Below, piece by piece: positions 42,266 to 58,223 of a stretch of 64,000 bases of DNA. The notes below the pieces were generated by a model. It saw only the letters and a list, made by a program, of their open reading frames with translations. It had not been told where the DNA came from and did not search any database. Every line of letters starts with the position of its first letter. Position 1 is the stretch's first letter. The stretch comes from Bacillaceae bacterium OF18-1A (GTDB lineage Bacteria; Bacillota; Bacilli; Bacillales; Bacillaceae_G). The DNA lies in NCBI GenBank assembly GCA_027694045.1, contig JAQEWB010000001.1, positions 744,001-808,000 of the forward strand, written 5' to 3'. The translations under genes and the position numbers were made by a program.

Positions 42266-42510
42266 AATAAAAAATGGCCCAGCATCTCTTTATATAAAGA
42301 GACGCTAAGCCATTTACTTAACGCGGTACCACTCTTATTGATTCTATTATGAATCCACCTTAGTAGTAATCGTTTGATTACAAACCTAATATCGAAGGTT
42401 AACCGTTAAGATTTACTAAGAATGTGATTCCTTTCCACCTTACTGCTCCTAGGCGAGTTCAGGATGTCATTTGACTATGTCACACCAACCCATAGCTCTC
42501 TGTACAAATA
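42266..42510 (-). promoter_or_regulatory. T-box riboswitch of the NSS transporter, probable Leu (CUC) specifier
   Basis: On the minus strand: GTACAGAGAGC at the base of stem I, the T-box AGAGTGGTACCGCG (42335-42322), and a terminator stem (AAATGGCTTAGCGTCTCTTT with its partner) ending in T residues near 42270. The specifier triplet, aligned with the other two T-boxes here (GAA then codon then purine), is CTC at 42457-42455, a Leu codon. The T-box is certain; the specifier is inferred by alignment. Confidence 0.9.
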
Positions 42511-42780
42511 CATGACCTTACTACTCCTATTCAACACGTTTTAATATTTAGAATATATTTTCTTTTGAAATTAATATGAAGTATATCGGTTATACTTATA
42601 ACTGTCAAGGGATATATTATTTTTGTCGAAAAGGATTTTAACACACATTTATAGAAAATATTTACAATGAAGTGCAACTTTATTCAGTGTGGATGTCCGT
42701 ACCTACCGATTACTAGCTTACACCCATCAGGTATTTATCTACTAAATAACAAGATAAAAATATAAGGAGATTCAAACGTT
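42511..42780. other. Divergent intergenic region between the T-box and permease genes
   Basis: AT-rich DNA with promoters for both directions expected. I see no gene, repeat or further RNA in it. Confidence 0.4.
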
Positions 42781-50665: not shown

Positions 50666-51964
50666 TTAAGGGACAAGTCTTGTACAATCTCTCGGAAAAG
50701 CACTCGCTTCTCGTACATTTGTTAATTCTAAAAGTTTATATACAACTCTCTCTAATCCAATTCCAAAGCCACCATGCGGCGGACATCCGTATCGGAATGT
50801 ATCTACATACGATTGGAATTTCTCTGGATGTAGTCCTTTTTCTTTAAAAGATGCGAGTAACATATCATAATTATGAATTCGCTGTGCCCCTGATGTTATT
50901 TCTAATCCTTTATATAATAAATCGAATGAATCAGTAATAGATGGATTTTCTTTATTCGGCATCGTATACATCGGTCTTGCTTCTTTCGGATAGTGTGTAA
51001 TGAAAACAAATTCACTATTATATGTTTCCTTTACATATTTCCCTAGTAACTTTTCCCCTTCTGTATCTAAATCTCCAATCGGTGATTCCTTACGATACTT
51101 ACTTTTCAAAATTTCTTGGGCTTCTAGCAATGTGATTTTCGGTATTTCAGTAATGACAGGTACTTCTATTTGTAATAGTTGTAGTTCTTGCTCACATGTT
51201 TCTCTTACTTGTTGGAACATATATCGTAAAACATCTGTTTCTAATTGCATCACTTCATGAAAATCATGAATGAATCCTAATTCTACGTCTAACGATATAT
51301 ATTCATTTAAATGGCGTGAAGAGTTATGATGTTCCGCTCTGTAAACAGGAGCAATTTCAAAAACACGTTCTAAGCCTCCCGCTACCATCATTTGTTTATA
51401 AAACTGTGGTGATTGTGCTAAATAAGCTTCTTTTTTGAAGTATGGAAGCTTAAAAACATTCGCTCCTCCTTCTGCCCCTTGCGAAACAATTTTCGGCGTA
51501 AATATACGATTGAAATCGTTCTCTATTAGAAATTCACTAAAGCTTTGAGCGAGTGTAGATTTCACTTTAAAAATCGCCGCAGTCTGCTCATGTCTTAATG
51601 ATAATACTCTTTCATTTAATAACTGGTCTAAGCCAACTTGTAACTTCTTTTTATTTATTTCAAATGGAAGTGGCTCTGCAACATTTAATATTTTTACTTC
51701 TTGCGTAAGTACCTCAACCCCTAATACTGTTTTCGAAGTCTCTACAATTTCACCAACTACCTGCACGACACTTTCGACATCTACTTTATATCCAGCTAAC
51801 TCATTTTCTAATACACATTGTATAACTCCCGTTCGATCCTTTAATAGTAAAAAACTAACATTACCTAAATGGCGAATCTTTTTTACCCATCCTTGTAGTA
51901 ACACAGTCTTTCCGATATGCTTCGTACATTCTCGCGTGAGTGAACGCTTCATTATTTGATCCAT
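50666..51964 (-). CDS. aspS2: Archaeal-type aspartyl-tRNA synthetase (second AspRS)
   Basis: A 432-residue class IIb synthetase. An OB-fold anticodon-binding domain (about 15-105) is followed by the catalytic core with motif 2 in FEIAPVYRAEHHNSSRHLNE and motif 3 in GGFGIGLERVVYKLLEL. ITHYPKEARPMYTMP, GAQRIHNYD and FRYGCPPHGG are archaeal/eukaryotic AspRS features, and the GAD insert of bacterial AspRS (about 590 residues) is absent. AsnRS is similar, but the T-box specifier GAC argues for Asp. GGAGGG precedes ATG 51964; an in-frame ATG at 51994 is coupled to a leader ORF. Probably non-discriminating. Confidence 0.85.
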   Translation of the reverse strand: MDQIMKRSLTRECTKHIGKTVLLQGWVKKIRHLGNVSFLLLKDRTGVIQCVLENELAGYKVDVESVVQVVGEIVETSKTVLGVEVLTQEVKILNVAEPLPFEINKKKLQVGLDQLLNERVLSLRHEQTAAIFKVKSTLAQSFSEFLIENDFNRIFTPKIVSQGAEGGANVFKLPYFKKEAYLAQSPQFYKQMMVAGGLERVFEIAPVYRAEHHNSSRHLNEYISLDVELGFIHDFHEVMQLETDVLRYMFQQVRETCEQELQLLQIEVPVITEIPKITLLEAQEILKSKYRKESPIGDLDTEGEKLLGKYVKETYNSEFVFITHYPKEARPMYTMPNKENPSITDSFDLLYKGLEITSGAQRIHNYDMLLASFKEKGLHPEKFQSYVDTFRYGCPPHGGFGIGLERVVYKLLELTNVREASAFPRDCTRLVP

Positions 51965-52025
51965 TACATTTCCCTCCAATAATTTTAATTTCATTTACAT
52001 TATTGTTGTCATCGTCATCATCCAC
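51861..52025 (-). CDS. Candidate Asp/Asn leader peptide upstream of aspS2
   Basis: A GTG-started frame with a near-perfect SD (AAAGGAGGTGA, 9 nt before the GTG), placed between the T-box terminator and aspS2. It begins V-DDDDD-NNN-VNE, five Asp then three Asn codons in a row, and overlaps the start of aspS2 in another frame, ending at 51861 (54 codons). The same SD could instead serve an ATG 13 nt away (51995-52021) encoding MMTMTTIM, whose TAA abuts an in-frame aspS2 ATG. Either way a ribosome is loaded just upstream. Function is inference. Confidence 0.45.
   Translation of the reverse strand: MDDDDDNNNVNEIKIIGGKCNGSNNEAFTHARMYEAYRKDCVTTRMGKKDSPFR
51995..52021 (-). CDS. Alternative short leader frame MMTMTTIM
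   Basis: Eight codons from ATG 52021, with SD AAAGGAGGTGA at a long 13-nt spacing. Its TAA is directly followed by ATG 51994, which is in frame with aspS2, so reinitiation could start an AspRS with a 10-residue extension. It shares DNA with the GTG-started Asp/Asn frame and only one is likely to matter. Confidence 0.3.
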   Translation of the reverse strand: MMTMTTIM

Positions 52026-52052
52026 GGTCACTCACCTCCTTTCAAAGAATAC

Positions 52053-52262
52053 AAAAATCCGCCCCTATAAATATAGGGACGGATTTTTCCGCGGTACCAC
52101 CCAAATTGTCATAATGACCATCTTAGCCCTGATAACGGTAGGTACCGTTTGCTTTTACTAATAATCACGTTCAAAGCAACACTCACAGGTGTCTTTCCAT
52201 CATGCGGTATCGCAATCTTCTCAGCAACCAATTGCTCTCTGTAGACCTTTGCATCATGTACT
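52053..52262 (-). promoter_or_regulatory. T-box riboswitch of aspS2, probable Asp (GAC) specifier
   Basis: On the minus strand: CTACAGAGAGC at the base of stem I, the T-box GGGTGGTACCGCGG (52102-52089), and a terminator AAATCCGTCCCTAT/ATAGGGGCGGATTTTT at 52088-52055. The specifier aligned as GAAA then GAC then ACC is at 52193-52191. Uncharged tRNA-Asp should favour read-through into aspS2. Confidence 0.9.
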
Positions 52263-52457
52263 TTTCCTGATCATCACTTTTTATATTTACAGAGTATTCT
52301 ATCTCTTTATTTTATAAAACGCAAGCCTTTTTTATTTAATCTTTTCCCATTTAGATTTACACTAATCTTTTTAATACCCTTTATTTTTTCCATTTTATTA
52401 CATACTTTTCGTATCTCCCACGCATATTAATATCAAAATTGTAACGGAGGTATACAT
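52263..52457. other. Intergenic region between the Asp T-box and the secreted protein gene
   Basis: AT-rich; promoters expected for both directions. Nothing else seen. Confidence 0.4.
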
Positions 52458-57863: not shown

Positions 57864-58110
57864 ACAAAAAACCCGTCCCTATAAAGTAGGGACGGGTTTA
57901 CCCGCGATACCACCCTAATTCTATTAGCTCTTCACTAATAGCACTTAGCAACGTACGATCATACGTGTTCTTTGTAACGGTAGACATCCGTCCGGGCTTA
58001 CTAACTTTCAGCCTCGGCTCCTCGGAGATGATTTTCGAATAACGTCTGAACACCGGCTTTCAGCAACATACCGGCTCTCTGGGGAATAGCTCATTATTCT
58101 ACTCTTTCTC
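57864..58110 (-). promoter_or_regulatory. T-box riboswitch of ileS2, Ile (AUC) specifier
   Basis: On the minus strand: CCAGAGAGCCGG at the base of stem I, the T-box GGGTGGTATCGCG (57915-57903), and a terminator AAACCCGTCCCTA/TAGGGACGGGTTTTTT at 57900-57866. The specifier aligned as GAAA then ATC then A lies at 58032-58030. It agrees with the downstream gene, which validates the alignment used for the other two T-boxes. Confidence 0.93.
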
Positions 58111-58223
58111 GTCTTCAGATTTGTATACTTTGTTAAAAGCTATTTTATGCCATCGGGCAATGAATTGTCAACTAATTCGAAATATATATTTAATTATATC
58201 CTTTTTTAACTATTTCTATACAG

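Follow-up and report, generated by a model that had tools for sequence, protein, structure and literature searches.

Why should an aspartyl-tRNA synthetase gene that already lies behind a T-box riboswitch also be preceded by a short reading frame that opens with consecutive codons for aspartate and asparagine? The question is raised by the aspS2 locus of the window (the whole stretch of 64,000 nucleotides that was analysed), in which all of the features described here lie on the minus strand. The T-box (52072..52283) matches Rfam RF00230 over its full length with 144.2 bits (cut-off 93); as had been claimed, its specifier codon, read from the sequence, is GAC (52191-52193) and it stands ahead of the leader. 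Its intrinsic terminator, recognised by a terminator scan as a hairpin of 16 pairs with a T run, occupies 52053..52088, and the Shine-Dalgarno (SD) sequence of the leader, AAAGGAGGTGA (52032..52042), begins ten nucleotides past it; the GGTGA within this SD is invariant in the 30 aligned loci described below. The leader reading frame (51861..52025) starts with GTG (52025-52023), encodes 54 amino acids and overlaps the start of aspS2 in another frame, ending at a TAA (51863-51861) that lies 101 nt inside the gene. The near-perfect SD, the GTG frame and the run of five Asp and three Asn residues at codons 2-9 (51999..52022; GAT, GAT, GAC, GAT, GAC, AAC, AAT and AAT) were thus correctly described in the original prediction. 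There is a second in-frame GTG at 52031, but this is only 3 nt past the GGAGG, and the GTG at 52025 is the likelier start because its spacing is 9 nt.

The gene that follows, aspS2 (50666..51964), has its own SD (51971..51978) and begins with an ATG at 51964. Its product scores 624.5 bits against NF003483 (cut-off 353) and 458.9 bits against TIGR00458 (cut-off 368.4), and three of three other AspRS2 proteins tested also exceed both cut-offs. The expectation of an archaeal-type, possibly non-discriminating AspRS therefore holds at the level of the family: by these models the gene encodes an archaeal-type non-discriminating aspartate--tRNA(Asp/Asn) ligase, which is predicted to charge tRNA-Asn as well. 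Two more AspRS/AsnRS-like matches, at 31-33% and 33-36% identity, occur in each of the 8 genomes searched, which agrees with the view of aspS2 as a spare enzyme. To our knowledge Bacillus subtilis 168 is without an AspRS2 enzyme. Two other T-boxes are found in the window, at 57885-58124 (minus strand) before an IleRS-like reading frame and at 42295-42543 (minus strand) before a sodium-dependent-transporter-like one, both genes being named by eye from their first residues; no homopolymeric leader reading frame was seen by eye behind either of them.

Distribution and codon content of the leader

Scanning of named genomes supplied related loci (the best 80 of 592 relatives were kept), and others came from whole-genome searches of 8, 19, 394 and 193 genomes, in which some genomes recur and a match at the strict cut-off was obtained in 2 of 19, 10 of 394 and 12 of 193. 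After omission of repeat genomes (L081-L088, L090, L092, L093, L105 and L106), 32 distinct AspRS2 loci of Bacillaceae/Paenibacillaceae type were tabulated, including that of the window; further loci exist beyond the best 80 of 592. A leader consisting of a strong SD, an ATG or GTG start and an Asp run, usually followed by Asn, precedes aspS2 in 30 of the 32. The two loci outside this set of 30 are L089, whose contig breaks off 33 nt before aspS, and L097, in which neither a leader nor a T-box above threshold was found. Lederbergia, Ectobacillus, Cytobacillus, Peribacillus and Paenibacillus are represented among the leader loci, together with Bacillus sp. 165. All 30 possess a T-box, the 29 besides the window each scoring above 93 bits with RF00230, and all have GAC at the specifier position, as located by motif in 22 and by eye in 8 rather than by a structural alignment of each locus. 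The proposal that the leader forms a second layer after the T-box is supported by this recurrence of a conserved Asp/Asn leader, which extends beyond the B. cereus group.

Phylogenetic analysis of AspRS2 from the 30 leader loci, 11 clostridial rows and L097 (midpoint-rooted for drawing only) places the 30 in one clade with support of 98/95, which splits into two subclades of 14 (Bacillus-type) and 16 (Paenibacillus-type) loci. Since they form one clade by shared descent, the 30 loci are not independent. A single origin of the leader is compatible with the tree, the leader having been retained as identity between the enzymes fell to little more than 50%. No record titled as a B. cereus-group species occurs among the best 80 relatives, so that conservation within this group rests on 12 B. 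cereus-group-like database proteins, seven of which carry a species name (B. cereus, B. mycoides, B. pacificus, B. paranthracis or B. thuringiensis). Eleven of these read DDDDDNNNVN and one DDEDDNNNVN, and their tails are variable. Constancy of the run had been proposed as a check on the leader; the run is kept in this group, whereas its length and make-up, including the placement of Asn, differ between genera. Five of the entries (P0004, P0007, P0008, P0010 and P0012) continue into AspRS2-like sequence (KIRHLGN or VVLLQGW), as though small indels in certain strains had brought the leader into frame with aspS2, or as though the reads were faulty.

Outside this clade the element was not encountered. 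In 64 further aspS2 loci, mostly clostridial, from among the best 80 of 592, there is no run of at least four Asp/Asn codons between the T-box core and aspS2; two such runs lie upstream of that interval. All ten of the 64 that were scanned do have a T-box, and one of the 64, L041 (Lactobacillales by its title, hence Bacilli), shows no T-box core either. A strict pattern of SD plus Asp run matched in 4 of 398 genomes from across the class, compared with 1 for the backward control pattern. One of the four matches is the aspS2 leader itself; no T-box core was present within 600 nt of the remaining three, two of which lie inside longer open frames. The aspS2 leader is thus the only credible match among the 398 genomes, with no other genes served, and its recurrence in 30 of 32 related loci, together with the rarity of the strict pattern, confirms that it is not a product of chance.

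Upstream regions of the 64 mostly clostridial loci show a different feature. In 28 of them (L014, L016, L019-L022 and others) two T-box core motifs occur within 500 nt upstream, with one core in 32 and none in 4, and Rfam reports one full T-box before aspS2 in all ten such loci tested; the double-core loci resemble T-boxes in partial tandem. A single core motif is present in all 30 leader loci, and it may be that each of the two groups acquired a second lock in its own way. A Guanidine-I riboswitch was also detected near aspS2 in Paenibacillus solanacearum (L012:5176-5280).

The codon content of the leader bears on what is being conserved. Over codons 2-10 of the 30 leaders there are 189 GAY codons and a single GAR, with 44 AAY and 5 AAR, compared with 463 GAY, 1235 GAR, 480 AAY and 688 AAR in the same aspS2 genes; among 17 hand-picked representative loci the count over codons 2-10 is 106 GAY and no GAR. 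Asp occupies codon 5 in 29 of 30 leaders and codon 6 in all 30, encoded by GAT as well as by GAC, and over codons 2-14 Asp accounts for 49.7% and Asn for 20.8% of residues, at least one Asn being present in every leader. The conservation of a GAY/AAY run through synonymous changes that had been anticipated is therefore evident, and from this pattern the run is coding, its Asp and Asn residues being kept as amino acids by silent changes. An element acting solely as RNA was set aside, since the third positions are pyrimidines as Asp/Asn coding demands. Gly (GGC or GGT) replaces Asp at codon 4 in 14 of 30 leaders, 13 of them Paenibacillus-type and one from Ectobacillus.

It is possible in principle that the charge of the Asp run, rather than its decoding, is what matters, in that an acidic nascent peptide in the exit tunnel would slow or abort translation and report Mg2+ or the state of the ribosome instead of tRNA charging. 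Passages of PMC8092293 and PMC11282234 describe early acidic residues that pause or destabilise the ribosomes of E. coli and Salmonella, and Asp2 and Glu5 of mgtQ that control release of a downstream ribosome-binding site (RBS), and the Asp run of the leader occupies those same early codons. A requirement for charge would, however, permit Glu, and the 189 Asp codons at positions 2-10 are accompanied by one Glu codon; moreover neutral Asn codons follow, and the element is always found behind an Asp T-box and before an Asp/Asn synthetase. We regard this explanation as unlikely, but a charge effect and tRNA sensing could act together.

A long-range helix between the leader RBS and aspS2

A stretch of aspS2 between +5 and +56 is complementary to the leader RBS, the latter extending from the SD as far as the start codon or codon 2. 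In the window the 5' arm (52024..52035) runs from the end of the SD to the leader start codon and the 3' arm (51936..51947) lies within codons 6-10 of aspS2, with 52035-52028 pairing to 51943-51936 (8 bp) and 52026-52024 to 51947-51945. Mean duplex energy over the 30 loci is -22.65 kcal/mol for cognate arms and -17.26 kcal/mol for arms swapped between species, and the cognate arms outperform the mean of their own swaps in 29 of 30. The exception is the window itself, whose helix is the weakest of the 30 by energy (-16.7 kcal/mol) and worse than its swapped-partner mean of -17.9.

Codon choice within aspS2 points to the same pairing. When codons 2-22 were recoded at random with the codon use of the gene itself, all 30 loci gave a negative z (mean -3.1), and in 28 of them a fraction below 0.05 of the recoded sequences did as well, the exceptions being L096 and L101; in the window 3.1% of the synonymous shuffles do as well. 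As a control, the same 5' arm was paired with six other stretches of each aspS gene, giving a mean z of 0.03 and a lowest value of -3.24 (n=180).

Covariation was assessed without gaps, by anchoring the 5' arms on GGTGA or the leader start codon and the 3' arms on AspRS2 protein motifs. In the 14 Bacillus-type loci (anchored on GGTGA and the Leu codon of R-x-L) 137 of 154 cells are paired, compared with 91 in the best slid register, and none of 5000 species shuffles is as good. Three variable positions in these loci are paired in 41 of 42 cells while the encoded residue is Ser, Ala, Thr or Val, a result equalled by 1 of 5000 shuffles. The 16 Paenibacillus-type loci have 143 of 160 cells paired and at most 84 in slid registers; here the shuffle test is less sharp (132 of 5000 as good) because there is little sequence variation. 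RNAalifold predicted no pair on a gapped MAFFT alignment of all 30 loci, which in our judgement reflects the variable length of the spacer between SD and start, the gaps introduced by MAFFT putting the arms out of register. On the evidence of the anchored comparisons and the recoding test, covariation supports the predicted helix, and synonymous codon choice in aspS2 maintains it.

With the helix present, the mean cost of opening is 12.3 kcal/mol for the leader RBS and 9.2 kcal/mol for the aspS2 RBS. The aspS2 SD sits in the loop of the helix, outside the stem, so the strength with which the helix shuts off aspS2 is unsure. When the P site of a parked ribosome holds codon 2, 4, 6 or 8, the mean aspS2 RBS cost becomes 7.3, 6.5, 5.9 and 5.3 kcal/mol respectively, values that stand without a control for a ribosome parked elsewhere. 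Of two mutually exclusive folds that the position of a ribosome might set, one is seen, and parking lowers the mean opening cost by 2-4 kcal/mol. This is not so in every locus, as parking raises the cost at one or more positions in 5 of 30 (L003, L008, L096, L103 and L107) and leaves it unchanged at one position in L017.

The leader frame across the aspS2 start and a proposed mechanism

The relation of the leader to the gene was compared across the 30 loci. The leader overlaps aspS2 out of frame in 25, is in frame with it in 4 and ends 17 nt before it in one (L096), where the leader stop overlaps the aspS2 SD. The in-frame loci occupy three places in the tree (L005 with L098; L006; L101). From codon 9 to the aspS2 start there is no stop in the leader frame in 29 of 30 loci, as against 9.2 expected from shuffles, and in the other two frames stops are present over the same stretch in 24 and 13 of 30 loci; for the 17 representatives the figures are 16 without a stop and 5.4 expected. 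An SD-like motif begins 9-14 nt before the aspS start in all 30 loci, and the Asp/Asn run ends 13-40 nt upstream of the aspS SD. Frameshift fusion of the leader into AspRS2 was set aside, since a start and an SD-like motif belonging to aspS2 itself are retained in all 30 loci.

Passage of the leader through the aspS2 start could indicate a plain inhibitory overlapping upstream frame, whose strong SD draws ribosomes across the start of the gene and so cuts leak without any sensing of charging. The 29 leaders that pass the start without a stop and the invariant GGTGA of the SD are what such a frame would show, but the strict Asp/Asn identity, the helix and the four in-frame loci would then be left unexplained, and we consider it distinctly unlikely. 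In the in-frame loci read-through would give an enzyme extended at its N-terminus, so that occlusion by out-of-frame ribosomes cannot be the essential step, and these loci point to the helix rather than to occlusion.

The helix could also be read in the opposite sense, as a device for translational coupling in which translation of the leader opens the helix and switches aspS2 on, stalling being incidental. The 3' arm does lie in the path of the leader ribosomes, but coupling would lead one to expect a leader stop at the aspS start or close by, which 29 of 30 lack, 25 of them continuing out of frame; coupling appears quite improbable. That the Asp/Asn stretch is simply an N-terminal extension of AspRS2 made from an alternative start, with no separate leader, fits the frame in 4 of 30 loci (L005, L006, L098 and L101) and is very improbable given the 26 loci in which it is not in frame and the separate SD-like motif and start of aspS2 in all 30.

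A second terminator would offer another output for the leader, but none was found by the terminator scan on the minus strand of the window between the leader and aspS2, and the same scan detected no terminator-like hairpin from the leader to aspS +60 in 30 of 30 loci. Ahead of the leader, by comparison, it detected one in 28 of 30 loci. Attenuation of transcription by a second terminator was set aside because none of the 30 loci (0 of 30) has such a hairpin past the leader, and the output is likely to be translation, via the long-range helix.

We consider it probable that the leader is a translational attenuator placed behind the T-box, by which the same shortage would be put to two successive tests. 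By the known chemistry of T-boxes, uncharged tRNA-Asp would allow transcription to pass the terminator. The strong leader SD would then load a ribosome at once, which would meet Asp codons from codon 2 and afterwards Asn codons. In a shortage of charged tRNA-Asp or tRNA-Asn, the ribosome would halt on or near the leader start region, which is the 5' arm, leaving the 3' arm free, and aspS2 would be translated from its own SD. With adequate charging it would run through the aspS2 start and leave, whereupon the helix would close both the leader RBS and the aspS2 start region. Asp codons placed from codon 2 onwards would be best positioned for a halted ribosome to cover the 5' arm. With the usual ribosome footprint a stall on the run would leave the aspS2 SD free in most loci, since the run ends 13-40 nt before it; a hold at the later Asn codons would leave much of the 5' arm uncovered, which counts against the model. 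The stalling, the direction of control and the role of the Asn codons as reporters of the second tRNA charged by the enzyme are parts of the model that we infer.

Because read-through of the T-box already needs uncharged tRNA-Asp, the leader would serve as a second, codon-level check against leak, and its Asn codons would check the second tRNA of a non-discriminating enzyme, for which the sensing of both Asp and Asn charges makes sense. A more elaborate form of the attenuator, which we advance more tentatively, is a two-stage, two-amino-acid gate in which the T-box would test uncharged tRNA-Asp at transcription, the overlapping leader would test Asp/Asn decoding at translation, and the leader RBS would be the lock strand that pairs with the aspS2 coding start.

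Comparison with known systems

Were the attenuator model true, aspS2 would be the first tRNA synthetase gene under a T-box and a leader peptide in series, and its leader the first Asp/Asn leader, within a limited literature search; in addition, the coding sequence of the regulated gene would be complementary to the leader RBS. It would show how an enzyme charging two tRNAs could be tuned to both despite a specifier for a single tRNA, and would serve as a warning that T-box annotation alone can miss a second layer of control. Among the titles and abstract beginnings of the literature matches listed, there is no tRNA synthetase with both a T-box and a cognate leader peptide. In passages of the T-box survey PMC2494555, aspS is named once, in a figure legend, and "leader peptide" nowhere.

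Several known systems share part of this arrangement. In Clostridium acetobutylicum one T-box reads two tRNAs. This is the two-codon T-box for tRNA-dependent amidation that is named in reference titles of PMC4206432. Both cases concern control of a synthetase that serves two tRNAs, but the aspS2 T-box has a specifier for Asp alone, the other amino acid being represented in the translated leader. Another example of a second tRNA being felt is the B. cereus LysRS1 T-box, which is described in part of PMC2916919 as responding partly to low Asn-tRNA. As with MgtL and mgtQ, early acidic codons of a small reading frame would steer folding of the mRNA around the downstream gene; according to passages of PMC8092293 and PMC11282234 those leaders use Asp and Glu (MgtL also Pro), whereas the aspS2 leader uses Asp and practically no Glu (1 versus 189), together with Asn. 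The His leader peptides of Firmicutes (B. cereus group his operon; hisS*/hisZ), as portrayed in sections of PMC9413887 and PMC2965389, likewise place cognate codons in a row within a leader peptide, also in Bacilli, but these leaders replace T-boxes. In the portions of PMC9413887 concerned they use terminator/antiterminator hairpins, whereas the aspS2 leader is added to a T-box and has no second terminator.

The closest parallel is B. subtilis anti-TRAP (rtpA). Its leader peptide rtpLP carries three Trp codons, and the rtpLP stop lies just before the downstream SD; in contrast, the aspS2 leader overlaps the gene in 29 of 30 loci and ends just before the SD in one (L096). As set out in part of PMC11255114, a T-box acts on transcription of rtpA, and tRNA-dependent ribosome stalling in rtpLP acts on its translation. 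The original prediction that control of one synthetase by a T-box plus a leader peptide is not an established arrangement stands, no such synthetase being found among the literature matches listed, but anti-TRAP is a precedent for a T-box with a cognate-codon leader peptide behind it. In both systems a T-box is followed by a leader peptide with cognate codons, the stalling at aspS2 being our deduction, but the amino acids are Asp and Asn instead of Trp, and the gene encodes a synthetase instead of a regulator. At aspS2, moreover, the leader RBS is linked by the helix to coding sequence of the downstream gene.
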